Source: Pseudomonadota bacterium
Lineage (GTDB): Bacteria; CALINM01
NCBI GenBank assembly: GCA_026418415.1
Contig: JAOABK010000016.1
Location: 1-38,894, forward strand
Direction of reading: 5' to 3'
DNA length: 38,894 nucleotides
Program-made: the position numbers and the translations under genes
Notes under the pieces: model-generated
The model's input: only the letters and a program-made list of their open reading frames with translations
Told to the model about the DNA's origin: nothing
Database searches by the model: none
Part shown: in pieces, positions 27,195 to 38,894 of the stretch
Layout: each line of letters starts with the position of its first letter
How positions within the stretch are numbered: position 1 is the stretch's first letter

Positions 27195-28574
27195 ATGTCA
27201 ATAGGTAAAGTATTAGTTGTTGAGGATGAGAAAGGAATGCGGGACCTACTCTCCAGAGTATTAAAAAAGGAGGGATATGAAGTTTTTCTTGCAGAGGATG
27301 GTGAACAGGGTTATGAAAGCGCAAAGGAATTAGCACCTGACATCATTATTGCTGATTTGGATATGCCTGTTATGAATGGTATTGAAATGATAAAAAGGAT
27401 AAGGGCATTCGACCCAAATGCAACAATTATAATAATAACTGCTTATGCTTCTTTAGAATCAGCCATTGAAGCATTAAAACTTGGTGCCTATGACTATATA
27501 ATTAAACCTTTTAACATAGAAGAAATTAGAATTGCAGTCTCAAAAGCTTTTGAAAGAATTACACTAATAAACCAAAATAGATATCTAAAAGAGGAGCTGG
27601 ACAATAAACTCTTTTTTCCTGGAGTAATCGGGAAATCAGAAAAAATGAAACAAGTTATGGAATTAATAGATGCTGTATCAAAAACAGACTCAATAGTACT
27701 TATAGAAGGAGAAAGTGGTACTGGCAAAGAATTAGTTGCTCGAGCAATACATGAAAACAGTAATAGGAGAGAGAATCCTTTTATTATTTTAAATTGTGGT
27801 GCCCTTGCTGAAGGTGTCCTTGAAAGCGAACTTTTTGGACACGAAAGAGGCTCCTTCTCTGGAGCTATTGTTCAAAGGAAAGGTAGATTTGAATTGGCTC
27901 ATAAGGGGAGTTTGTTCATTGATGAAATTGGAGAATTACCACTTTCTGCTCAAACCAGACTTTTAAGGGTACTGCAGGAAAAAGAATTTGAAAGGGTGGG
28001 AGGTAATTTTCCAATAAAAGTTGACGTAAGGATAATTGCAGCAACTAACAAAAATTTAGAAAAGGAAGTCAAGGAACACAGGTTTAGAGAAGATCTCTTT
28101 TATAGACTCAACGTATTTAAAATTAACTTGCCACCATTAAGAGAACGAATTGAGGACATACCAGAATTTTGTAACTATTTTATATATAAATTTAACCGAC
28201 AGATGAATAAAAATATAAAGGGTGTATCGGAAGAAACAATGAAAATTTTCAAAAGTTATTATTGGCCTGGAAATATAAGAGAATTACAAAATGTAATTGA
28301 AAGAGCAGTAGTACTATGTAAAGGAGATATAATAACTCCAAGAGAAATACCTGATAACTTATCAAATAGAGAACAAAATATTTCTTATGATTTAAAGGAA
28401 GGTGAAAATTTAGAGACCTTTATTGACAGGATAGAAAAAGAATTTATTCTTAAAGCTCTAAAAAAAGCTGGTTATTCACAGACTAAAACTGCTGAAATAC
28501 TTGGGATTAAGAGAACAACCTTAAGGTATAAATTAGAAAAACACGGATTGCTTCATAAAACAATAGATAATTAA
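27195..28574 (+). CDS. NtrC-family sigma54-dependent response regulator
   Basis: The 459-residue protein has a receiver domain (phosphoacceptor Asp54, Lys104), an AAA+ domain (Walker A GESGTGKE at 172-179, Walker B around 238-249) and a C-terminal Fis-type helix-turn-helix (SQTKTAEILGIKRTTLRYKL). The sigma54-contact loop reads GSFSGA (219-224) instead of GAFTGA, with conservative changes that keep the hydroxyl residue and Phe. It should oligomerise on phosphorylation and open sigma54 promoters. One such promoter lies 23 bases beyond its stop, and a near-identical one at 37770, so these are its likely targets. No histidine kinase is encoded next to it. Confidence 0.93.
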   Translation: MSIGKVLVVEDEKGMRDLLSRVLKKEGYEVFLAEDGEQGYESAKELAPDIIIADLDMPVMNGIEMIKRIRAFDPNATIIIITAYASLESAIEALKLGAYDYIIKPFNIEEIRIAVSKAFERITLINQNRYLKEELDNKLFFPGVIGKSEKMKQVMELIDAVSKTDSIVLIEGESGTGKELVARAIHENSNRRENPFIILNCGALAEGVLESELFGHERGSFSGAIVQRKGRFELAHKGSLFIDEIGELPLSAQTRLLRVLQEKEFERVGGNFPIKVDVRIIAATNKNLEKEVKEHRFREDLFYRLNVFKINLPPLRERIEDIPEFCNYFIYKFNRQMNKNIKGVSEETMKIFKSYYWPGNIRELQNVIERAVVLCKGDIITPREIPDNLSNREQNISYDLKEGENLETFIDRIEKEFILKALKKAGYSQTKTAEILGIKRTTLRYKLEKHGLLHKTIDN

Positions 28575-28596
28575 TCACATTCCATCTTAAATTAAC

Positions 28597-28612
28597 TGGC
28601 ATTAAAATTGCT
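28597..28612 (+). promoter_or_regulatory. Sigma54 (-24/-12) promoter of the envelope cluster
   Basis: TGGCATTAAAATTGCT matches TGGCACRNNNNTTGCW except at one or two less-conserved positions, with GG and GC ten bases apart as required. The expected start, about 12 bases beyond the GC, is near 28623, just before the GTG at 28626. The cognate-type activator ends 23 bases upstream. The spacer and -12 element are identical to the site at 37770. Confidence 0.88.
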
Positions 28613-28625
28613 AAAATCGATTGAT

Positions 28626-29531
28626 GTGACAAAATTCTTTACTTTGATTCTAACCCTTCTTTTTATATTTTCTTGTAAGGGTAATTTTACAATCAATAAA
28701 CAATACTTACCAATTCATAAGGGTGTTTCAAGTAATAACTTTTACCAATTTTACGCAAGGGGTGGCGAAAGACATCTTAGTTTAATCGATTGGGGAGAGG
28801 ACTCCCTTCCCACTTCTGCAGGTTCTTGTCATCATGGAGGAGAAATCCTTCCTCCTCAAAAAGGTAGTATAAGAGCATACTTAAACGAAAAAAATCTGTT
28901 CTTAGATATATATTGGGATGACAAAACAAAGGATGTAAAAAACATTTTTTGGGATAGGAAGGAAAAGAAATGGAAAGACGGCAAAGATGATGGCATAGCA
29001 ATAATATTTAGCAAAAATCCTCAATTTGATTGTACAACTACTTGTCATATGTTAGATTGGAAAGTTGGTGATAGTAAATTTTCTTCAGATTATAGAATGT
29101 TTACAAAAGACAATACAGAATATCCATTAATAATACTCCGTTACAAAAAAACTAACAATAAACCCCTCTTAGCAATACTTGGAAAGGATGGAAAACTGAC
29201 TCCAAATAATGAACAAATTTACCATTTAAATTCAATCAAATTAGAAAAAACACCTTTAACATTACAATTATATCAAGCTATAAAAGAAGATAATCAACCA
29301 AAGATACCTCAAAATCATGATTTTTTTGTTTTAAATCCTAAAAATTCCTTTCTTAATGGTTTTATGGAATACAAATGGGGTAGATGGCATGCTAAAGTAG
29401 AAATTCCTATAGAAAAATTAAATCTCCTTTCAATTGAAAAAGATGATAAAATATATATAGCAATAGCAATATTTGATAATACACATGCAAACCATAGCAT
29501 AACTAAAACTTTTTATGCAACTTTAGAATGA
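28626..29531 (+). CDS. Lipoprotein resembling ethylbenzene-dehydrogenase-type haem-binding proteins
   Basis: From GTG 28626 the protein has 301 residues and a lipoprotein signal (MTKFFTLILTLLFIFSC, Cys17). A TTG at 28608 lies inside the sigma54 promoter, so it cannot be the start. The body suggests the beta-rich haem-binding fold of the ethylbenzene/DMSO dehydrogenase gamma-subunit type (GSIRAYLNEKNLFLDIYWDD, WKDGKDDGIAIIFS, WHAKVEIPIEKL). SCHHGG (Cys68) and CTTTCH (136-141) are possible haem or metal ligands; the second is a c-haem-like motif with one extra residue. It is the first gene of the sigma54 unit and probably an outer envelope redox protein. Family assignment is moderate. Confidence 0.7.
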   Translation: MTKFFTLILTLLFIFSCKGNFTINKQYLPIHKGVSSNNFYQFYARGGERHLSLIDWGEDSLPTSAGSCHHGGEILPPQKGSIRAYLNEKNLFLDIYWDDKTKDVKNIFWDRKEKKWKDGKDDGIAIIFSKNPQFDCTTTCHMLDWKVGDSKFSSDYRMFTKDNTEYPLIILRYKKTNNKPLLAILGKDGKLTPNNEQIYHLNSIKLEKTPLTLQLYQAIKEDNQPKIPQNHDFFVLNPKNSFLNGFMEYKWGRWHAKVEIPIEKLNLLSIEKDDKIYIAIAIFDNTHANHSITKTFYATLE

Positions 29532-29540
29532 GGAGTGAAT

Positions 29541-30266
29541 ATGCGTAAATTACTTATTCTTCTGATTCCATTATTCATCATTACCTGTAACAAAAAAGAT
29601 CAAAAATCAACCATAACAGGTACAATTTATCAGGCCATGCCATCCTTTTATGTTTACATCTATAAAGAGAATATGGACTTAAAAGGTCCAGCTTTTGCTG
29701 AAACTATTTCAGATAAAGATGGGAATTTTTCAATCCAGTTACCACCAGGAAAATACTTTTTAGTAGCAAGAATGAGAAGCAGTGGTGACATAGCGGGACC
29801 TCTTGAGGTTGGTGACTTTAAAAGTGAAGTAATAGGACCTATTACAATTGACGAAGAGGGCAAGATAATAAAACAAGACATTAAAGTTTTTAAAAAGACC
29901 GGAGAAAACAAAGATATAGCAATATTAGAGAATAAGAACCAATCAAAAACTGGTATAAGCGGTACAATTTATGATGCTGAAGGAAAACCTGTATCTGGTG
30001 CAAGAGTTCACGTATATGATCATGTACAAATGTCTGAACGTCCTAAATTTGTATCAAGCCCTACTGGTCCAGATGGTAAATATATTATCTATCTTCCTAA
30101 AGGAGGCACATATTACTTAGCTGCAAGAGATAAATTTGGAGGCCCACCTAAAGTCGGCGATCTTTATGGTAGATATGATAAAGGCACCATTGAACCTTCA
30201 GGGGTTATTGTAAAGGATAATGAAATCTTGAAAAATATCGATATTACAATTCACAGGGTGTGGTAA
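29541..30266 (+). CDS. Lipoprotein with two carboxypeptidase-regulatory-like beta domains
   Basis: I choose ATG 29541 (AGGAG at 29531-29535) over a GTG six bases earlier, giving 241 residues with a signal ending IITC (Cys16), a somewhat imperfect lipobox. Two related repeats follow: TGTIYQAMPSFYVYIYKEN with DKDGNFSIQLPPGKYFLVAR, and SGTIYDAEGKPVSGARVHVYD with GPDGKYIIYLPKGGTYYLAAR. Both repeats also share a G-P-x-x-V-G-D tail. These are transthyretin-like carboxypeptidase regulatory folds, usually structural or ligand-binding modules on the cell surface. It lies 9 bases after the previous gene and directly before the next. Confidence 0.8.
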   Translation: MRKLLILLIPLFIITCNKKDQKSTITGTIYQAMPSFYVYIYKENMDLKGPAFAETISDKDGNFSIQLPPGKYFLVARMRSSGDIAGPLEVGDFKSEVIGPITIDEEGKIIKQDIKVFKKTGENKDIAILENKNQSKTGISGTIYDAEGKPVSGARVHVYDHVQMSERPKFVSSPTGPDGKYIIYLPKGGTYYLAARDKFGGPPKVGDLYGRYDKGTIEPSGVIVKDNEILKNIDITIHRVW

Positions 30267-31175
30267 ATGAAAAAACTATTGATCTTAATCTTTTTTTCGC
30301 TATTCTTTGCATGCGGTCCCAAAATTTCAGAAATTGAAAAATATTCCTCCGGCGCCAAAAAGGGAGATTTAAGAGATATCAAGAAATTAATTCAACTTTT
30401 AGAACACCCCGATGAGGATATAAAAGTGAAAGCCTATCAAGGGCTTATTAATATACCAGACAATGCTAAAGCAAAAACAATTGAATTAACCATAAATTTA
30501 TTAAAGAAAAATTTTGATAATGCGACAAGAGAGTTCGCTATAGGTTTATTAGGTAAATTCAAAGCAAAATCTTCAGTACCAGTCCTTATCCAAATTTCAA
30601 AAGATAAGAATTTTAAAAGAAGATATGTTGTTTTCTCAGCTTTAGGTGAAATTCAAGATGAAACAGCATTAGATGCTATAATTGATGGACTTAAAGATGA
30701 AAAAGAAGATGTTAGAAAATATGCATCAAGAGCCCTTATTAAAATAGGCCCCAAAGCTATTCCCAAAATGATGGAGAGATATGTGAAGGAAGACGAAAAC
30801 ACAAAGGGATATTTAATTAGAGCCTTCGGAGAATTAAGAAATAACGCCCCTGAAGATCTTTTAATAAATGATTTAAATGGTCCAAATAAATATGATGTTA
30901 TTTGGGCTCTTGGTAAAACGGGCTCAAAAAAATCCCTGCCCTATTTAATAAATCTTCTTAATTCAGATGATTACAAGGTAAGGGTTCAGGTTTGTCAGGC
31001 CTTAGGAGATTTAAACCAACCAGATGCAATACCTTACCTTAGAAAGGCATTAAAGGACAAAGAGGTACTCGTTAGAGAGTGGGCAGCAAGATCTTTAGAA
31101 GTACTTACTGGAGAGAGAACATACTATATTGACCAACAAGGAAAATATGCTCTACCGTATAACATCTATCATTAG
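30267..31175 (+). CDS. HEAT-repeat lipoprotein
   Basis: The 302-residue protein begins with a lipoprotein signal ending LFFAC (Cys16). It then holds about seven HEAT/PBS-lyase-type repeats of 30-35 residues, such as IIDGLKDEKEDVRKYASRAL, LPYLINLLNSDDYKVRVQVC and PYLRKALKDKEVLVREWAAR. Such repeats form a curved helical scaffold for protein binding, so it probably organises a complex on the periplasmic side. ATG follows the previous stop with no gap. Its end overlaps the next gene by 29 bases. Confidence 0.88.
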   Translation: MKKLLILIFFSLFFACGPKISEIEKYSSGAKKGDLRDIKKLIQLLEHPDEDIKVKAYQGLINIPDNAKAKTIELTINLLKKNFDNATREFAIGLLGKFKAKSSVPVLIQISKDKNFKRRYVVFSALGEIQDETALDAIIDGLKDEKEDVRKYASRALIKIGPKAIPKMMERYVKEDENTKGYLIRAFGELRNNAPEDLLINDLNGPNKYDVIWALGKTGSKKSLPYLINLLNSDDYKVRVQVCQALGDLNQPDAIPYLRKALKDKEVLVREWAARSLEVLTGERTYYIDQQGKYALPYNIYH

Positions 31176-32406
31176 GAAGTTTGTATTAATTTTTACAATT
31201 TTCCTGATCTATAACGGTCTAAATATTTATGCTAAAGATCAAAATGAAATTTTATATATGTATGCAAATATGACAAACTTCTCTTTCTGGCTTATATTTC
31301 TTATGGGAAGCATTCTTCTTTCACCAATTGGTAGGGTTTTCTGTGCAATTTGTCCAGTTGGTGAAGTAAATTTTTTAACTTCACGATGGGGCTTAAAAAA
31401 AAGAATTTATTTTAATTTAAGTTTTCTACAAGGTATAGCAATGTTACTTCTCTTTTTACTTGTAATTACATTACATATATCAAGACATCCTCATTATACT
31501 TCTTTGCTAATTTCTACAGTTTTAATGACCGCTCTTATTCTTGGGCTATTGTTCAGGGGTAATATATTTTGTCTCCATTTATGTCCAGCAAATGGTTTTT
31601 TAAAATTTTATTCAAAATTTTCTTTTCTTAAGATTATTTGTAATGGGGATGTAAAAGTTGGATCACCATGCATGGTCTTTTTAAATCCCTGTAACCACCA
31701 AAGAGAAAATTGTCATATCTGTTTGCGGTGTTTTGAAAATAGCGAAGGACTAAAAGTCTCTTTTAAAAAACCAGAAACAAATTTCACTCCCCTTTCCATT
31801 AATGATTTTTTTATTTTTTCAATACTCTTTGGTTTGACAATCATGGCGTTCATTAGAGTTGTTCGTAATATAAGAGAGATATTCGTTTATCCTCCCTATA
31901 TATTTAGTCAAATTTTAAACATAGATGAAAAATATATCATTTACTTAGTAGTTTTTTTTGGTGTAATAATTTATCCAATAATTTTTATTCTTTTAGTTAG
32001 TTTTTTGAAAAAAGTATTCATAAAAGATAGCTTGAAAAACATTATAAGTGAAACAATTACCTATTTAATTCTACCATTATTTTCAGTGCATTTAATACTT
32101 GCTCTAATTAAACTTAATGCAAGACTGGGTTTTCTGCCATATGTAATAAACGACCCATCTGGAAAAGATACTATTATGCTGTATCAAATGAAGAAAATTG
32201 GAATTCCCTACGACTTAATACCAATTGATATTATGAAATATATAATTTTATTTTTGCCATTAATAACACTCTTTTGTGCTTATTTTATATTCTTTAAAGG
32301 TAAGAATTATTCAATAAGAGACTTTATAAATATGATTTTAATCATTATTTTCTTTATTTTTATTGAAATTTGCATACTAATGTGGTTGTTTAAGGGAATA
32401 ACATGA
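31147..32406 (+). CDS. Membrane polyferredoxin of the NapH/NosR/CcoG type
   Basis: ATG 31147 with AAGGA four bases upstream gives 419 residues; a start at 31129 would have no such site. About ten hydrophobic helices are present. Cysteine motifs are FCAICP, FCLHLCP and CHICLRC, with further Cys in GSPCMVFLNPC. This pattern is that of membrane proteins which pass electrons across the inner membrane to periplasmic reductases or maturation factors. It lacks the periplasmic FMN domain of true NosR, and the last half (four to five helices) is unlike NapH. A direct partner could be the haem-like lipoprotein at 28626. Confidence 0.8.
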   Translation: MLYRITSIIRKFVLIFTIFLIYNGLNIYAKDQNEILYMYANMTNFSFWLIFLMGSILLSPIGRVFCAICPVGEVNFLTSRWGLKKRIYFNLSFLQGIAMLLLFLLVITLHISRHPHYTSLLISTVLMTALILGLLFRGNIFCLHLCPANGFLKFYSKFSFLKIICNGDVKVGSPCMVFLNPCNHQRENCHICLRCFENSEGLKVSFKKPETNFTPLSINDFFIFSILFGLTIMAFIRVVRNIREIFVYPPYIFSQILNIDEKYIIYLVVFFGVIIYPIIFILLVSFLKKVFIKDSLKNIISETITYLILPLFSVHLILALIKLNARLGFLPYVINDPSGKDTIMLYQMKKIGIPYDLIPIDIMKYIILFLPLITLFCAYFIFFKGKNYSIRDFINMILIIIFFIFIEICILMWLFKGIT

Positions 32407-32885
32407 AAAAATTTATTATAATAATTCTTATAAACTTGTTTTTTTCTGTACCATCTAAAGCCTGCTTTGGTCCAGAATTAATCATTGGATATCAACAGGA
32501 TAGTCAAGAACACTATATATCCGCTATCCTTCTTGAACTCTACATTAAAGAAAAGACTGGGGTTGGAGCAAAAATACAGCAAGTTTCAAACAATAATATT
32601 TTAATCCTTTTGAAAGAAGAAAAAGTTGATATCATACTTTATGAAGGTTCATTAAACTTTAACAATTTAACTAAAAAGGAAATGACAAATGATAAAAAGC
32701 TTTTCCTCTATTATAGAACAAAAATTAAAGAAGATCTTCGATTCACTACCGTTATGGAAGCGATAGATAGACTTTCAAAACACTTAAACTCCGATGATAT
32801 TTTCAGGTTAACTCAAAAGATCGGAAATCAAAAACAGGAAAGACGAATTATTAAAGAATTTCTAATGCAAAGAGGCCTTTGGTGA
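32403..32885 (+). CDS. Small periplasmic protein resembling one lobe of quaternary-amine binding proteins
   Basis: The 160-residue protein has a signal peptide (MKKFIIIILINLFFSVPSKA, then Cys21). The mature N-terminus (ELIIGYQQDSQEHYISAILLELYIKEKTG, read to VDIILYEG) looks like the first strands of OpuAC/OsmF-type solute-binding proteins. The C-terminus (MEAIDRLSKHLNSDDIFRLT with REFLMQRGLW-like end) resembles their final helices. The central lobe, about 120 residues in the family, is missing, so it is a one-lobe version that probably does not clamp a ligand in the usual way. It overlaps its neighbours by 4 bases on both sides. The relationship is by eye. Confidence 0.6.
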   Translation: MKKFIIIILINLFFSVPSKACFGPELIIGYQQDSQEHYISAILLELYIKEKTGVGAKIQQVSNNNILILLKEEKVDIILYEGSLNFNNLTKKEMTNDKKLFLYYRTKIKEDLRFTTVMEAIDRLSKHLNSDDIFRLTQKIGNQKQERRIIKEFLMQRGLW

Positions 32886-33652
32886 GAATTTTTTTATTTT
32901 TATTATTTTTCTTACCCGGCTGTATAGGTATTCTCAAAGATAATGAGAATAATATTTATGGTGGAATTCTCAATAAAAATACCATCTGGAAAGGCACAAT
33001 AACCATTGAAAAAGATTTACTTATACCCCAAAATGTAGAATTAAAAATTGAAAAGGGTACTAAGATTCTTTTAAAACGTTCTGAAAGCACAAGGACAGAA
33101 CCAATCTTTCTTCAACCTGAAACGGAAATACTTGTTCGTGGGAAATTATATGCAACGGGGAACAAGAATAAACCAATTCTCTTTATCTCCGGAGAAAAAG
33201 AGGTATCTCCAAAGGACTGGGGAGGATTGGTTTTAGATGGTGGCAGGATCGAACTTTCTAATGTTATAATAAAAGATGCATCAACTGCTATCTTAGCCAT
33301 AGATGGAAATATAAAAATTACAGATTGTATATTTGAGAACAACAATTATGGATTTGTTGCTTTAGAAAATTCACAGGGAAGTTTAGAAAACTGTATTATC
33401 AAAAAAAATAAATCTGGAATTATTATTAACAACGATAAAATCATACTTAAAAACATTAAAGTTACTGAAAATGAAGAAGGAATGATTATTAAAAAAATTA
33501 ATGGTAAATCATCTGGTTTTGAAATATTTAGAAACGATACAGGATTAGTTATCCCCTTAAATTATTTAAACTTCTTCATAGAGGACAATAAAATTTATGA
33601 AAATAAAAAAAATGTTTTTTTATTTGATACTGACATTAACTTTAACCAGTAA
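32882..33652 (+). CDS. NosD-like right-handed beta-helix lipoprotein
   Basis: GTG 32882 (GTGA overlap, AGAGG six bases upstream) gives 256 residues with a perfect lipobox LPGC (Cys14). It opens with a beta-helix cap region (IWKGTITIEKDLLIPQNVELKIEKGTKI is the pattern) and then repeats such as IELSNVIIKDASTAILAIDG, IKITDCIFENNNYGFVALEN and LENCIIKKNKSGIIIN. Each turn is about 22 residues. NosD-type proteins act periplasmically in copper-sulfur centre assembly of N2O reductase, but many relatives have other roles. It is the first of three beta-helix proteins in the cluster. Confidence 0.82.
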   Translation: MRIFLFLLFFLPGCIGILKDNENNIYGGILNKNTIWKGTITIEKDLLIPQNVELKIEKGTKILLKRSESTRTEPIFLQPETEILVRGKLYATGNKNKPILFISGEKEVSPKDWGGLVLDGGRIELSNVIIKDASTAILAIDGNIKITDCIFENNNYGFVALENSQGSLENCIIKKNKSGIIINNDKIILKNIKVTENEEGMIIKKINGKSSGFEIFRNDTGLVIPLNYLNFFIEDNKIYENKKNVFLFDTDINFNQ

Positions 33653-34625
33653 AGTATCGGCAAATTTGTACTCAAATGTAATAATAGAAAATACAACCTT
33701 AGAGGGGAATAATACCTTTTCAGAGAAGGTATATATTAAGGGTAGAGTTACTGTTTCAGAAGGCTCAAAACTTACAATAAGGGAAGGCACCAAAGTAATA
33801 TTTCTATTTATAGATGAAGAAAAAGATAACATAGGTGAAAGTGAGATCTTAAGTCAAGGCAAAATAGAAATAATGGGAACAAAAGAAAATCCAGTAATTT
33901 TTGAATCAGATAGAAAACATAAAGGTTCATGGCTGGGATTAAGTATTATGAATGTAGATGAACCGAATATAATTAAAAATGCAGTTTTTCAAGATAGCTA
34001 TATGGCTTTACATGCCCATTTTTCTAACTTAAATATTGAAAATTGTATTTTTAAAAATAATTACAGGGGATTCCAGAGTCAGGAAGGGAAAATACGAATA
34101 ACTAACACAAAATTTTTTAATAATGATACCGCCTTACAGTTTAGAAACTCCAGTGCTCTTTTAAAAGATATAGAAATCTGGGACAACAAAGGAGGATTAA
34201 ACTTTCTTTATAGTGAAGCAGATATAGAAAATATTAAAGTACATAAAAACATTCTTTTTAATGTAAAAATTCGTCACTCAAAGGCAAAATTTAAACATAT
34301 CCAAGTATATGAGAGTCTTCAAAACTTCTATTCTAAAAACTCACAAATAGAAATAGATGATATTTTATCAGCTAATTCAAATTTAAGAGGTTTATCTTTT
34401 GAAGAATCGGAAATAAAAATAACAAAAGCAAGAATAAAGGATAATTCCTTAGATGGCATATCCCTTGATAACTCTAATCTCTGGTGTAATGAAGTAATTT
34501 ATAATAATAATGCAAGGTATGATGTTTATATAAAAGGAAAATCTGCTATCTCTAATGCTTGTTTGAAGGATATTAAGAGGGAAAAAATATTTGGAGTTAA
34601 GGATGATTTTTCGTCAGAACATTAA
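33597..34625 (+). CDS. NosD-like right-handed beta-helix protein, secreted
   Basis: The 342-residue protein has a cleavable signal (KIKKMFFYLILTLTLTSKVSA) and a long beta-helix of about 12 turns, for example LNIENCIFKNNYRGFQSQEG, IRITNTKFFNNDTALQFRN and IEIDDILSANSNLRGLSFEE. It is longer than the other two relatives. The start ATG 33597 lies 56 bases inside the preceding gene, an unusually large overlap; ATG 33612 is an alternative but would lose the basic n-region. The first repeats resemble those of the gene at 32882 and point to a duplicated family. Confidence 0.8.
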   Translation: MKIKKMFFYLILTLTLTSKVSANLYSNVIIENTTLEGNNTFSEKVYIKGRVTVSEGSKLTIREGTKVIFLFIDEEKDNIGESEILSQGKIEIMGTKENPVIFESDRKHKGSWLGLSIMNVDEPNIIKNAVFQDSYMALHAHFSNLNIENCIFKNNYRGFQSQEGKIRITNTKFFNNDTALQFRNSSALLKDIEIWDNKGGLNFLYSEADIENIKVHKNILFNVKIRHSKAKFKHIQVYESLQNFYSKNSQIEIDDILSANSNLRGLSFEESEIKITKARIKDNSLDGISLDNSNLWCNEVIYNNNARYDVYIKGKSAISNACLKDIKREKIFGVKDDFSSEH

Positions 34626-35514
34626 AAATTTGACAATATTTCTTCTTTTTGCTTTTTTAACTACCCTTTCTTGTAGTAGTGAAAAAAATAAAACATTCAA
34701 AATTGGGTATATGATATGTAATAGCCCCAAAGAAACTGAAGAAAGATTCTTAGCGCTTAACGCCTATTTAGAAAGGGAAACTGGTTATAAATTCAAGTTC
34801 TATGCAGTTGATACTGTTGATTTTGAAGAGGCTTATAAAAGAGAAAATTTTGATTTTATTCATACAAACCCAGTGCTTTACATAATATTAAATGAATCCT
34901 ACGGATTAGTACCAATGGTTGCAGAAAAAAACGGCATTTATGGCGCAAGAACCTTTGGAACTATAATCGTAAAAAAGGATAGCAATATCAAAAACATTTC
35001 AGATTTAAAAAATAAAAAAATGATCTTTGGACCAACCTTCGCTCCTTTCGGCTATATAACGCAGTTATACATCCTTTTAAAAAATGGGATAGACCCATAT
35101 AAAGATTTAAAGACAATTTATCAACCCCACCATTCGTTTCAACATGAGAAAATCATTTACGGGGTCTGGTTTGGTGCTTATGATGCTGGCACAGCACCTT
35201 TTTTAGATTTAGAAGAGATGGACAAAGAGGGAAAAATCAAGTTAGATGAAGATTTTAGGATTATTGCAAAATCAGAACTTCTTCCCTATTGTACCTTTTC
35301 GGCTAATAAAAAACTACCCACTGAGGTAATAGAAAAGGTAAAAAAAGCCCTTTTAAAAATTAATAGGGATACAACAGTGGAGATAAACAATGAGAGAGTT
35401 AATATATTCAAAAAAGCAAAGATCGATGGGTATGAAGAGATTAATGACAAAGATTATGACAAAATGAGAGAGATTCTCAAGTTCATTAATTTTCCGCCCT
35501 ATCAAAAGTTTTAA
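34603..35514 (+). CDS. PhnD-like phosphate/phosphonate-type solute-binding lipoprotein
   Basis: ATG 34603, with GGAG six bases upstream, gives 303 residues; a TTG four codons earlier is less likely. The signal ends LTTLSC (Cys24), a probable lipobox. The mature part matches the PhnD-like binding fold: FKIGYMICNSPKETEERFLAL, ENFDFIHTNPVLYIIL, YGARTFGTIIVKKDSNI, ISDLKNKKMIFGPTFAPFGY and GVWFGAYDAGTAPF. Both lobes are present. No ABC permease or ATPase is encoded in the cluster, so it may be a sensor or a scavenging protein rather than a transporter part. The ligand is unknown, perhaps an oxyanion. Confidence 0.8.
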   Translation: MIFRQNIKNLTIFLLFAFLTTLSCSSEKNKTFKIGYMICNSPKETEERFLALNAYLERETGYKFKFYAVDTVDFEEAYKRENFDFIHTNPVLYIILNESYGLVPMVAEKNGIYGARTFGTIIVKKDSNIKNISDLKNKKMIFGPTFAPFGYITQLYILLKNGIDPYKDLKTIYQPHHSFQHEKIIYGVWFGAYDAGTAPFLDLEEMDKEGKIKLDEDFRIIAKSELLPYCTFSANKKLPTEVIEKVKKALLKINRDTTVEINNERVNIFKKAKIDGYEEINDKDYDKMREILKFINFPPYQKF

Positions 35515-35515
35515 T

Positions 35516-35977
35516 ATGAAAAAGATTGATTTTATAATCTATTCAATCATTATTATCTGTCTTTCTTTAGTAATATTTTATGCCTATCAAACAGATTATC
35601 GGGAAACTGCTAAGGAAGATGATAAAGAAATTGAGTATATATCCTCTGAGATAAAACGTTCCAAAATTGAGCCAGCAATTAAGTTAATAGAGGAAAATAA
35701 ATATGATGAAGCTCTAATAGTTTTAGAAAGATATAAGGACACAAACCCTTTCTTACTTTTTTATAAAGGGCTTGCGCTTTATGGTATAAACAAAAAAAAT
35801 GAGGGGCTAAACCTTATAAAATTAGCATTACAAAGCTCTCCAGTCCTTTATGACATAAAATATAAAAATAATGTAAGACACCATATGGAAAGCATATTGA
35901 AACAAATTAGTTCCGATAGAGATCTTAAAAATTATAGGCACTTCATAGAAAGCAAACTTAAAGGCGGTTGCGGATGA
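35516..35977 (+). CDS. Membrane-anchored TPR-like protein
   Basis: The 153-residue protein has one N-terminal membrane helix (IDFIIYSIIIICLSLVIFYAY). The rest is a helical domain resembling about two tetratricopeptide-type repeats (KYDEALIVLERYKDTNPFLLFYKGLALYGINKKNEGLNLIKLAL). It ends with Gly-Gly-Cys-Gly. It probably faces the periplasm as a protein-protein scaffold. ATG is one base after the previous stop and it overlaps the transporter gene by 4 bases. I do not recognise a named family. Confidence 0.7.
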   Translation: MKKIDFIIYSIIIICLSLVIFYAYQTDYRETAKEDDKEIEYISSEIKRSKIEPAIKLIEENKYDEALIVLERYKDTNPFLLFYKGLALYGINKKNEGLNLIKLALQSSPVLYDIKYKNNVRHHMESILKQISSDRDLKNYRHFIESKLKGGCG

Positions 35978-37032
35978 TTAAACAATCAGTAATATTCATA
36001 ATTTCCGCATCCATAATCGGTATTTTTTCATCAATACTGTCGTATAAAGGTAATCCAATCAATACTGGTATATGCATCTCTTGCTTTATGGAGAACTATG
36101 CAGGCGCTCTTAAGCTACATAATAATGTATATATGCAGTACCTAAGACCTGAAATTACATTTATAATTATTGGCAGTTTCATTTCAAGCCTTTTAAGAAA
36201 GGAGTTCCAGCCGAGAATATCTCAAAGTATAATCTACTCTTTTTTCGGTGGGTTCTTCATGATAGTTGGAAGCGCAATTTTTATTGGATGTCCAATTAAG
36301 ATGCTTTTAAAATTAGCAGGTGGCGATCTAAATGCCCTTTCTGGAATAGCAGGACTTATATCTGGTGTATATCTTGCAGCTCTATTATTAAGGGACGGTA
36401 TTGATACTACCCCCTTTACAATAAAAAAGATAAAAAATAGTATTACCTCCTATTTAGTTATTGTTCTTGTTATAGTGATCTTTTTAACATCTATGATATA
36501 CCCGAAAATATTTGCTGAAAGCAAAAGTGGTGCGGGAGCAGAAAAAGCTCCACTCATATTATCAATAATCTTCAGCCTTATCATTGGTTATATATCTCAA
36601 ATTTCAAGGTTTTGTGTTACAGGTGCTACAAGAAATAGTATAATTTTAAAGGAAAAAACTGGGATAATTGCCCTTTTCTCTCTTACATTCTTCGCTTTCA
36701 TAACAAATATTTTTCTTAACAGATTCAATTTTGGTATTTACGGACAAGCAGGTAGTCATACACAATGGCTCTGGTCCTATTTAGGTATGTTATTAACTGG
36801 TTATATTGCAGTTATAATAGATGGCTGTCCATTCAGGCAATTAGTTAAAACAGGTGAAGGTGACCTTAACGCTCAAATTGCCTTTTTTGGCATGTTAATA
36901 GCTGGTGCCTTTGTACAAAATTTTAACATTCTGTCAGACTCTGCTGGTCCTACAATCGCTGGTAAGATATGGCTTCTCATAGGATTTATAATCTTTTCTT
37001 TGATTACCCTTGAATTGAGAAGAAATAGATGA
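35974..37032 (+). CDS. YedE-family membrane protein, putative selenium/sulfur-compound transporter
   Basis: I choose ATG 35974 (ATGA overlap) over a TTG six bases earlier, giving 352 residues and about ten helices. It contains the two internal repeats of the YeeE/YedE family: GCPIKMLLKLAGGDLNAL and GCPFRQLVKTGEGDLNAQ, each a Gly-Cys-Pro motif at the entry of a helix. The N-terminal NTGICISCFMENYAGALKLH matches the selenium-metabolism subtype (YedE/FdhT type). In that subtype the gene is usually next to a TusA-like gene and selD, neither of which is seen here. A related branch imports thiosulfate. The selenium role is inferred, not demonstrated. Confidence 0.85.
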   Translation: MIKQSVIFIISASIIGIFSSILSYKGNPINTGICISCFMENYAGALKLHNNVYMQYLRPEITFIIIGSFISSLLRKEFQPRISQSIIYSFFGGFFMIVGSAIFIGCPIKMLLKLAGGDLNALSGIAGLISGVYLAALLLRDGIDTTPFTIKKIKNSITSYLVIVLVIVIFLTSMIYPKIFAESKSGAGAEKAPLILSIIFSLIIGYISQISRFCVTGATRNSIILKEKTGIIALFSLTFFAFITNIFLNRFNFGIYGQAGSHTQWLWSYLGMLLTGYIAVIIDGCPFRQLVKTGEGDLNAQIAFFGMLIAGAFVQNFNILSDSAGPTIAGKIWLLIGFIIFSLITLELRRNR

Positions 37033-37778
37033 AATATTTATCGATCCTTTTATTTTTGACTTTTATTTTTCCTTTTAACGTGAAAGGAGAAGATAAAATA
37101 GTACTTTCGGGAAAAATAAAATTAGAAAAAGCCCTATTTTTTGAAGGAAAAACATTAATTATAGAGAAAAATACATTAATTGAAATTGATACAGAAGAGG
37201 AACATGTAATACATATAAAGAATGGAGAGCTTTATATAAATGGTGCATATCAAAACCCAGTAATTATTAAAAGCAAAAGACCTCATAACGAACAAAACGC
37301 TTTCTTTATAGAAGACTCACAAGCAAACATAAAAAATGCTGTTTTTGAAAATAATGGCTGGTCAATACATGTTCATAACTCTGAAGTTTCTATTGAGAAT
37401 TCAATTTTCAAAAATAACTTTGGCGGTATTAGATTTTTTAATAGCAAAACTTATATAAAAAGAAACCTTTTTGAAAAAAATGAGATAGCCATTAGATTTA
37501 TAAACTCAAATAATAATGAAATTATAAAAAACATTTTCTATCAAAATCAGACTGCTATTTTTATAAGAGAGGGTATTCATAAAGTTGGTATCAAAGAAAA
37601 TGTTTTTATAAAGAACCTATATGATTTTTATACTGGTTTTTTTCAAACAGAAAGTCTAAACATCCCCTTCAATTATTATTATGAAACCCCATCAATTTTC
37701 GATAAAACAAAAGACGAAGATATATCAATTATTATAAATATTCATCCTGTTTTAAATGATTTTCCAGACTGGCACTAA
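37029..37778 (+). CDS. NosD-like right-handed beta-helix protein, secreted (third copy)
   Basis: The 249-residue protein has a cleavable signal (MKYLSILLFLTFIFPFNVKG) and a beta-helix of about eight turns, including ANIKNAVFENNGWSIHVHNS, VSIENSIFKNNFGGIRFFNS and KTYIKRNLFEKNEIAIRFIN. It overlaps the transporter gene by 4 bases. It is the last gene of the first sigma54 unit, and the second sigma54 promoter overlaps its final codons. Confidence 0.8.
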   Translation: MKYLSILLFLTFIFPFNVKGEDKIVLSGKIKLEKALFFEGKTLIIEKNTLIEIDTEEEHVIHIKNGELYINGAYQNPVIIKSKRPHNEQNAFFIEDSQANIKNAVFENNGWSIHVHNSEVSIENSIFKNNFGGIRFFNSKTYIKRNLFEKNEIAIRFINSNNNEIIKNIFYQNQTAIFIREGIHKVGIKENVFIKNLYDFYTGFFQTESLNIPFNYYYETPSIFDKTKDEDISIIINIHPVLNDFPDWH

Positions 37779-37785
37779 AATTGCT
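37770..37785 (+). promoter_or_regulatory. Second sigma54 (-24/-12) promoter
   Basis: TGGCACTAAAATTGCT fits TGGCACRNNNNTTGCW at every strongly conserved base. It differs from the 28597 site at a single base. It overlaps the last three codons of the preceding gene, and the expected start near 37796 lies just before ATG 37798. Confidence 0.9.
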
Positions 37786-37797
37786 TTTTTGCTAAAC

Positions 37798-38118
37798 ATG
37801 AATAAAATAAAAATACCAGAAGACATTTTTGAGAGAATAGAAGAAGAAAACCTTAAGAAAGCAGAAGAGCTTATTAGTAAAGGTTTATACGAAGAAGCAG
37901 AAGACATTGGAGTTATGACCCTTATAAGAAGCGGTATAATGACACAGCTTAATCCCATGGGCAAAATAATCTGGGATAATTTACGAACTATTAACACTTT
38001 GAATGACTTGGTTGAAAAAATTAGCAAAGAGTTTAATATTGACTATGAATCCTGCTTTAGAGATATTAAAATTTTCATTGATGATTTGATTGATAAAGGC
38101 TTTATCGTTTATGAATAA
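37798..38118 (+). CDS. PqqD-like peptide-binding protein (RRE) for a radical SAM enzyme
   Basis: The 106-residue protein starts at ATG 37798; an upstream reading frame through the promoter should not be counted. Residues 45-105 (IMTQLNPMGKIIWDNL then LVEKISKEFNIDYES and IKIFIDDLIDKGFI) match the winged-helix PqqD/RRE fold that hands precursor peptides to radical SAM enzymes. The first 40 residues form an extra acidic helical region. It overlaps the radical SAM gene by 8 bases and is the first gene of the second sigma54 unit. Confidence 0.85.
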   Translation: MNKIKIPEDIFERIEEENLKKAEELISKGLYEEAEDIGVMTLIRSGIMTQLNPMGKIIWDNLRTINTLNDLVEKISKEFNIDYESCFRDIKIFIDDLIDKGFIVYE

Positions 38119-38894
38119 AACATTCATTTTAAATGCACCTCTTACAATTAATTTAACACTCTCTTATAGGTGTAATTTCAATTGTGCTCACTGTTACAGT
38201 AGAGAGGAAGATTTAAAAGGTGAACTAAGTTTTGATCAGTTCAAAAAAATTGTAGATATACTTGCCTCATGGAAAGTGCCTTTTCTTAATTTAGGTGGTG
38301 GAGAACCTCTAATATATCCCCATTTATTTGATTTTGTTGAATATGCAACATCCAAGGGACTACAATGTTCAATGAATACAAATGGTTATATACTTGATAA
38401 AGAGATGGCAAAAAAAATCAAACAAGTGGGCTTTAAATCTGTGGGAATAAGTATAGATAGCCCCGACGAAGAAAAACATGACTTTTTTAGAAATAGACAG
38501 GGAAGTTTTAAAAAAGCTCTTAATGCTCTTGAAAATTTAGCACAAGAGAATGTTAAAACCACTGTATCCATGGTAATCTCAAAGTTAAATTTTCACAACT
38601 TTGAAGAAATGATTCCCCTTTTAAAACAATATAATGTGGCACAACTATTTTTACATAATTATAAATGTTCTGGATTAGGTTATAAGAACATGGAAAAATA
38701 CGACCTAACTCCAGAGGAATGGAAAGATTTTTATATAAGGGCACTACAATTAAAAAATAACACAAAAGATATAATAATTTCCTTCGATGATCCAATTCTT
38801 CATTTATTACCAGAATATGATGAAACCCCTCTTGTAAAAGGTAGCACCTGTGGGAAACTTTCACTTAATATTAGATCTAACGGTGACATAACCC
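38111..38894 (+). CDS. Radical SAM protein, PqqE/SPASM-like (5' part)
   Basis: The gene runs off the right edge; 261 codons are visible. ATG 38111 lies 8 bases inside the PqqD-like gene. The [4Fe-4S] site is CxxxCxxC at Cys21, Cys25 and Cys28 (LSYRCNFNCAHCYS). The SAM-site motif LNLGGGEPLIYPH and the conserved SMNTNGYIL and VGISIDSPDEEKHD follow. A cysteine in GSTCGKLSLNIRSNGDIT marks the start of a SPASM/twitch region. Together with PqqD it indicates peptide or cofactor maturation, as in PQQ, mycofactocin or sactipeptide systems; haem-type (NirJ/AhbD) maturation is also possible. The precursor is not visible. Confidence 0.9.
   Translation, partial: MNKTFILNAPLTINLTLSYRCNFNCAHCYSREEDLKGELSFDQFKKIVDILASWKVPFLNLGGGEPLIYPHLFDFVEYATSKGLQCSMNTNGYILDKEMAKKIKQVGFKSVGISIDSPDEEKHDFFRNRQGSFKKALNALENLAQENVKTTVSMVISKLNFHNFEEMIPLLKQYNVAQLFLHNYKCSGLGYKNMEKYDLTPEEWKDFYIRALQLKNNTKDIIISFDDPILHLLPEYDETPLVKGSTCGKLSLNIRSNGDIT

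Follow-up and report, generated by a model that had tools for sequence, protein, structure and literature searches.

What does a sigma54-controlled block of envelope genes have to do with a radical SAM enzyme? This is the question raised by one end of a contig from a Pseudomonadota bacterium (GenBank assembly GCA_026418415.1, JAOABK010000016.1). Our window was the whole contig (G000:C69, 38,894 bases), and the cluster studied runs from position 27195 to the contig end. It opens with a gene for a sigma54-dependent response regulator, after which come eleven closely packed genes for envelope proteins, a PqqD gene, and a radical SAM gene that the contig end truncates. All of them lie on the + strand, either overlapping or with gaps of a few bases. 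The original prediction, which was made from the sequence alone, had listed the same parts, and both Pfam searches and gene order bear it out. It had also held that the parts list was undescribed, which is not wholly so, given that the PqqD and radical SAM proteins match the NCBIfam models called GeoRSP. A host in Deferribacterota, the phylum that the prediction had named for comparison, is unlikely, as the window's own phylum counts just three genomes in the collection. We think it probable that the locus represents most of a widely conserved bacterial system: it would comprise the sigma54-controlled envelope half of a GeoRSP locus and the beginning of its cytoplasmic half.

A GeoRSP locus and its candidate substrate

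Two genes at the contig end identify the locus, and we have little doubt that it is of the GeoRSP kind:

37798 to 38118, + strand: PqqD-family protein of GeoRSP type, with an RRE (RiPP recognition element) domain (Pfam PqqD)
38111 to 38894, + strand: GeoRSP radical SAM/SPASM enzyme, truncated by the contig end (Pfam Radical_SAM; TIGR04303)

The best NCBIfam match of the PqqD protein is TIGR04302 (5e-15; 55.8 bits, below the cut-off of 100), and it also matches the lasso_PqqD model (4e-9). The radical SAM protein scores 270.7 bits over 254 of the 325 positions of TIGR04303, which is below the cut-off of 400, at least partly because the contig end truncates the gene. Its intact counterpart in the sister genome G002 reaches 409.8 bits and passes. 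Downstream of the radical SAM gene, the sister genomes carry a precursor peptide gene, a SPASM-only protein (in G002, 41.9 bits to TIGR04304, below the cut-off of 300), and a cysteine desulfurase family gene. A search of the window's own assembly for the remainder of the locus past the radical SAM gene did not find it. The GeoRSP radical SAM enzyme was present in 12 of 386 sampled genomes. In the open-access literature that we searched, GeoRSP turned up in one unrelated mention, and no substrate, neighborhood, or function was described for it, although an earlier report elsewhere is possible.

The precursor had been expected beyond base 38894, and in the sister genomes this is where its gene sits. 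A search for small conserved open reading frames (ORFs) yielded one family, located between the radical SAM and SPASM genes. Its members are 17 to 21 residues long and follow the pattern Y-x-x-P-x-[VI]...[VI]-H-P-C-stop, with a short core, ...G-S-x-x-[VI]-H-P-C, from which we call them HPC peptides. The sister-genome peptides, MKYVRPKAKGISSVHPC in G002 and MKYIKPKTLGISTVHPC in G001, are encoded a few bases 3' of the radical SAM gene, with AAGGAGGTGA immediately upstream of the ATG in both. In these two genomes the peptide gene directly follows the radical SAM gene and in most Desulfuromonadales loci it is linked to it; elsewhere it is more distant or present in multiple copies.

The family tracks GeoRSP closely. 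A degenerate DNA pattern with fixed spacing was found in 57 of 62 GeoRSP genomes (G228 and G397 are probably the same genome counted twice), compared with 0 of 18 control genomes, chosen because they have canonical YedE but lack GeoRSP. The reversed pattern occurred in 0 of 80 genomes, and a mis-spaced version in 2 of 386, which is the chance level. Across 107 distinct sites, divergence was concentrated at the third codon position (0.62, versus 0.27 at the first and 0.24 at the second), and a Shine-Dalgarno-like sequence lay upstream of 104. The Y and P of YxxP and the terminal H, P, and C were fixed by the collecting pattern. Positions that were free of the pattern were nonetheless conserved, with V or I at -10 in 104 of the 107, V at -9 in 90, G at -8 in 99, and V at -4 in 103. 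Searches of Pfam and NCBIfam with three 20-residue peptides returned no match, but such short queries may be lost to filters.

The N-terminal part of the peptide also has a counterpart in characterized pathways. Lasso peptide leaders are bound by discrete PqqD-type RREs through the motif [Y/W]xxPx[L/V/I/F/A] (PMC13381572), also given as YxxPxL (PMC10368454). The YxxPx[VI] present at 104 of the 107 sites, which were collected with the YxxP pattern, fits this motif. Recognition domains of the PqqD type bind their targets through it, which marks the peptide as the probable substrate of the maturase. Taken together, linkage, co-occurrence, and the leader motif make the HPC peptide very likely the substrate of GeoRSP. 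The number of copies can be large: one Nitrospirota genome (G393; L137, L267-L270) has twelve matches. The majority of them contain an additional Cys (GSVCVHPC), and several adjoin carboxypeptidase-regulatory-like or similar proteins.

The envelope operon and its regulation

The remaining features of the cluster, up to the PqqD gene, are as follows:

27195 to 28574, + strand: NtrC-family sigma54-dependent response regulator (Pfam Response_reg, Sigma54_activat, and HTH_8, a Fis HTH)
28597 to 28611, + strand: sigma54 (-24/-12) promoter-like box, TGGCATTAAAATTGC, upstream of the envelope operon and conserved in relatives
28626 to 29531, + strand: EB_dh-type protein, likely a lipoprotein, start uncertain (Pfam EB_dh 2e-07, slightly below the gathering score)
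29541 to 30266, + strand: CarboxypepD_reg-type protein with a lipobox-like N-terminus (Pfam)
30267 to 31175, + strand: HEAT-repeat protein with a lipobox-like N-terminus (Pfam)
31147 to 32406, + strand: membrane protein with 4Fe-4S motifs, a NapH/NosR-like polyferredoxin (Pfam Fer4_5; conserved Cys motifs)
32403 to 32885, + strand: substrate-binding protein of EgtUC/ProX type, reduced to a single lobe (profile match to EgtUC, E 3e-12)
32882 to 33652, + strand: beta-helix protein 1, NosD-like, with a lipobox-like N-terminus (Pfam NosD-type)
33597 to 34625, + strand: beta-helix protein 2 (homology to beta-helix proteins 1 and 3)
34603 to 35514, + strand: binding lipoprotein of PhnD/PtxB/ArrX/AioX fold (PhnD-like by Pfam; Z 25-28 to PtxB, ArrX, and AioX)
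35516 to 35977, + strand: membrane-anchored TPR protein with a penultimate C-terminal Cys (...KLKGGCG; TPR by profile)
35974 to 37032, + strand: YedE-family transporter (Sulf_transp) of the GeoRSP-linked type (TIGR04112, 341.1 bits, passing the cut-off of 200)
37029 to 37778, + strand: beta-helix protein 3, NosD-like (Pfam NosD-type)
37770 to 37784, + strand: second sigma54 box, TGGCACTAAAATTGC, near-identical to the first, upstream of PqqD and overlooked in the original prediction

Lack of a conserved neighborhood had been named beforehand as a possible refutation, and what we found is strong conservation. We collected 80 named GeoRSP loci from Desulfuromonadales, Geobacterales, Nitrospirota, and other groups, and counted gene families over 92 loci. 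YedE recurred in 65, the PhnD-like protein in 63, the single-lobe binding protein in 58, and the carboxypeptidase-regulatory-like protein in 50. Desulfuromonadales loci follow the order of the window nearly gene for gene and continue with the SPASM-only protein, the cysteine desulfurase family protein, and a small lipoprotein. In a second type of locus, found in Geobacter and Nitrospirota, the EB_dh, HEAT, and Fe-S genes are swapped for a ResB-like protein, an SO_0444/SaoE-like permease, and a cupin, or else for other genes. One Geobacter-type locus is adjoined by NikR and CbiM genes (L025 4085-5829), and other GeoRSP loci contain a His-rich RcnA-like exporter or an SaoE/SO_0444-like permease within the cluster.

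The conserved neighborhood and the conserved promoter box both uphold the view of the cluster as a single sigma54-controlled unit. With at most 2 mismatches, the window has 3 matches to the sigma54 box against 0.4 expected, a number that 0 of 100 shuffles reached. In 12 of 16 relatives the box before the EB_dh-type gene agrees with the consensus at 9 or more of its 10 positions, compared with 1.6% of control or random stretches. The second, before PqqD, is present in the window and both sister genomes (L020, L022), so that the PqqD-radical SAM pair is probably transcribed from a promoter of its own in addition to any read-through. Both boxes nearly abut the likely start codons (28597-28626; 37770-37798), such that almost leaderless transcripts would be expected.

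The two halves of the system can come apart. In G001, which belongs to the same genus, only fragments of the envelope operon are left (L022 1950-3345, on G001:C214), whereas the PqqD, radical SAM, peptide, SPASM, and desulfurase genes are intact and open. Both sigma54 boxes persist, the first at 2118-2132 of L022. This pattern of decay indicates that the peptide-modifying part can exist on its own, or that it has so far survived the loss of the envelope part.

Several envelope proteins look like redox components, as had been proposed. The EB_dh-type protein gave a profile match to NxrC (2.8e-12), and its predicted fold, modeled with moderate confidence (mean pLDDT, the predicted local distance difference test, of 70.9), resembles EBDH gamma (Z 13.6) and NxrC (Z 13.2). 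It has invariant CHHG and CxxxCH motifs plus a conserved late His, and likely binds haem; together with the Fe-S membrane protein, this haem-protein fold supports the earlier view of redox parts. Other descriptions needed adjustment. Three lipoproteins had first been counted, whereas lipobox-like N-termini, judged by eye, number five, with the first beta-helix and PhnD-like proteins added. The pair of binding-protein relatives holds for the PhnD-like member, while the second is a single EgtUC/ProX-type lobe: in the comparison with EgtUC, 162 profile positions cover the entire 277-residue chain. The nearest relative of this lobe in the PDB is the ergothioneine binder EgtUC.

A probable carrier-YedE module

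Within the envelope operon, the PhnD-like protein, the TPR protein, and YedE form a trio whose order is kept even where it is separate from the radical SAM gene. In the 386-genome sample, the trio was found only alongside GeoRSP, and YedE occurred in 30 genomes overall, including 11 of the 12 with GeoRSP. A branch with 100/100 support separates canonical YedE from the GeoRSP-linked type, which need not be one clade. The neighbors of canonical YedE are TusA/YedF and a desulfurase, and the TPR protein of the GeoRSP kind is absent there.

The two partners of YedE carry conspicuous cysteines. In the PhnD-like protein, Cys39 and Cys230 are invariant, and an aPtGYL-like stretch stands where PtxB has its S/T-rich anion motif (ASTSSHL). 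Loss of this motif along with the two invariant cysteines makes a soft ligand more likely, and oxyanion binding was disfavored on the same grounds. In the TPR family, 60 of 60 members end with a Cys that is followed by exactly one residue. Selenocysteine in this tail was ruled out, as there was no UGA-read tail and every one had Cys; no Pfam match to SoxY or SoxZ was found in the TPR protein. A Cys-armed carrier, SoxYZ, has been proposed to feed a YeeE-type channel, SoxT (PMC11582611). The TPR protein, which adjoins YedE, is probably a sulfur (or selenium) carrier.

Which element would be moved is less clear. YedE is generally linked to selenium use (PMC5322559), and according to one paper no organism has a known dedicated selenium transporter (PMC11097638). 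SelD, which is present in the window's own genome, was found in 38 of 50 GeoRSP genomes and was missing in 10 of the 45 of those that have YedE. Part of these absences can be attributed to genome incompleteness, but the SelD-less genomes include one record titled as a single chromosome (G422). Among canonical-YedE genomes, 17 of 19 have SelD, so the contrast between the two groups is small. We rejected selenium as the sole purpose of the trio because it occurs without SelD, including in G422, even though the numerical contrast with canonical YedE is weak. Of the selenium or sulfur link suggested earlier, what stands is a YedE above the TIGR04112 cut-off, a Cys-tailed carrier, and a desulfurase gene in the sister genomes; what does not is an obligatory SelD. 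We put about even chances on the trio relaying sulfur, selenium, or both.

Dispersed peptide genes and giant surface proteins

Many peptide genes lie away from the GeoRSP locus. Of 67 dispersed sites, 24 lie immediately 3' of a gene that encodes five or more CxxCH motifs (range 10 to 43) and 33 immediately 3' of a gene of at least 900 codons, some such genes being clipped by the fetched stretch. Among the 552 ORFs of at least 150 codons in these stretches, 38 have five or more CxxCH, and 24 of the 38 directly precede a peptide gene. The stretches were selected around peptides, however, and the CxxCH enrichment is therefore a description and no independent test. One giant cytochrome directly 5' of a peptide gene has at least 2157 residues and 43 CxxCH motifs (L274 3-6473). 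Other dispersed copies follow giant fn3/DUF2341, FG-GAP, or carboxypeptidase-regulatory-like proteins, and FG-GAP/UnbV_ASPIC proteins of about 487 residues stand repeatedly in the same position (L236, L237, L239, L223). The varied neighbors of the dispersed copies imply that any cytochrome link is partial, and that the peptide product functions with surface cytochromes is a possibility we rate below even odds. The repeated siting behind giant multihaem cytochrome genes nevertheless suggests a link to the way Geobacter-type and Nitrospirota bacteria assemble their electron-conducting surface.

What the system may do

We tentatively favor a view of GeoRSP as a peptide-modification system resembling those for ribosomally synthesized and post-translationally modified peptides (RiPPs), in which PqqD would bind the YxxPx[VI] part of the 17- to 21-residue precursor, and the radical SAM/SPASM enzyme and its SPASM-only partner would modify the short core. 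The product would act in the envelope, where the beta-helix and carboxypeptidase-regulatory-like proteins are its probable partners; giant surface proteins encoded elsewhere in the genome, often multihaem cytochromes, would probably be others. The PhnD-like, TPR, and YedE proteins would most likely move sulfane sulfur (or selenium) between periplasm and cytoplasm, with the Cys tail of the TPR protein as the carrier arm, while the EB_dh and Fe-S proteins may transfer electrons. A bolder reading, which we consider rather unlikely, is that the HPC peptide becomes a peptide-derived redox ligand, cross-link, or prosthetic group of a new kind for giant surface proteins, chiefly the multihaem cytochromes of metal- and sulfur-respiring bacteria, with the sigma54-controlled envelope operon (the Cys-tailed carrier, YedE, the haem and Fe-S proteins, and the beta-helices) as its apparatus of supply and attachment. 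Several points weigh against the favored scheme. The peptide is absent from the window, because the contig ends first, and the claim for the window's genome rests on its sister genomes. Five GeoRSP genomes had no match to the peptide pattern, including the single-contig genome G246, and modification of the peptide is itself a prediction. Many of the dispersed peptide genes adjoin FG-GAP, fn3, and carboxypeptidase-regulatory-like proteins, and a few are beside apparent housekeeping genes. Finally, we know of no substrate for the GeoRSP-linked type of YedE.

An argument can be made that the locus serves mainly in sulfur or selenium uptake through the PhnD-like protein, the Cys-tailed carrier, YedE, and the desulfurase, and that GeoRSP and its peptide are merely co-regulated neighbors. 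The trio is a coherent module that can sit apart from the radical SAM gene, and the family has its general tie to selenium. Yet the confinement of the trio to GeoRSP genomes in our sample and the presence of YedE in 11 of the 12 genomes with GeoRSP, against 30 of 386 overall, together with SelD missing from some genomes with YedE (with the reservations given above), makes it unlikely. A process resembling nos maturation, in which beta-helix and Fe-S membrane proteins build a metal-sulfur center, would account for the NosD-type proteins, the NapH/NosR-like protein, and YedE, and would suit the metal-exporter-like permeases (SO_0444/SaoE-like; His-rich RcnA-like) that replace some genes in the Geobacter and Nitrospirota form. 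Cofactor assembly of this sort had been the original suggestion, but it is unsupported as stated: NosZ, NosL, and NosFY are absent from the cluster genes by Pfam, there is no constant candidate for a target metalloenzyme, and we regard it as very improbable.

The peptide could instead be a secreted signal or an antimicrobial RiPP, as its RRE-type leader motif and the several copies per genome might suggest. Unlike the cores of diversifying antimicrobials, however, its core is near-invariant across phyla even at the positions free of the collecting pattern, and the conserved neighbors include no constant dedicated exporter, immunity, or protease gene; such a role strikes us as improbable. Detoxification of organometals or metalloids would draw together the ArsP/SaoE-like permease, the AioX/ArrX-like binding protein with its two invariant cysteines, and the Cys-tailed protein. 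But the permease is absent from the type of cluster found in the window, and sigma54 control, the giant cytochromes, and the peptide would all be left unexplained, which makes this the most remote of the explanations considered.

Relation to known systems

The closest relatives of the locus are the systems recognized by the GeoRSP models (NCBIfam TIGR04302, TIGR04303, and TIGR04304), with which it has in common a row of genes for a PqqD-type protein, a radical SAM/SPASM enzyme, and, as seen in the sister genomes, a SPASM-only protein. To these our analysis adds the precursor peptide family, the sigma54-controlled envelope operon, and the carrier-YedE module. Until now GeoRSP has been a radical SAM system with a name but no known substrate, and a precursor that is short, near-invariant, and multicopy makes it testable now. 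More broadly, pyrroloquinoline quinone (PQQ; PqqA/PqqD/PqqE) and mycofactocin likewise involve a short peptide, a PqqD-type protein, and a radical SAM/SPASM enzyme; here the peptide is a different one, there are several dispersed precursor genes per genome, and no further pathway genes were seen. Lasso and other RRE-dependent RiPP systems share the discrete PqqD-type RRE and the YxxPx[V/I] motif in the precursor. In contrast to lasso peptides, the entire precursor here has only 17 to 21 residues and an HPC end, radical SAM chemistry is expected, and neither the B2 leader protease nor the lasso cyclase C is found in the window's cluster or among the conserved neighbor families of the 92 loci.

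On the envelope side, the resemblance to the nos operon (NosR, NosD) lies in the types of beta-helix and Fe-S membrane protein, while NosZ, NosF, NosY, and NosL are not among the genes here. The transporter belongs to the same family as the YedE of selenium operons and scores above the TIGR04112 cut-off, but it falls on its own side of the tree, has the PhnD-like and Cys-tailed TPR proteins in place of TusA/YedF, and occurs without SelD. SoxYZ and SoxT offer a parallel of another kind, with a periplasmic carrier whose C-terminal Cys arm adjoins a YeeE/YedE-family channel. The TPR protein is unrelated to SoxYZ in sequence and the Sox enzymes are absent, so that the link would be one of analogy. 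Even so, an invariant Cys-tailed protein adjoining a separate type of YedE provides a concrete test of how channels of this family are fed.

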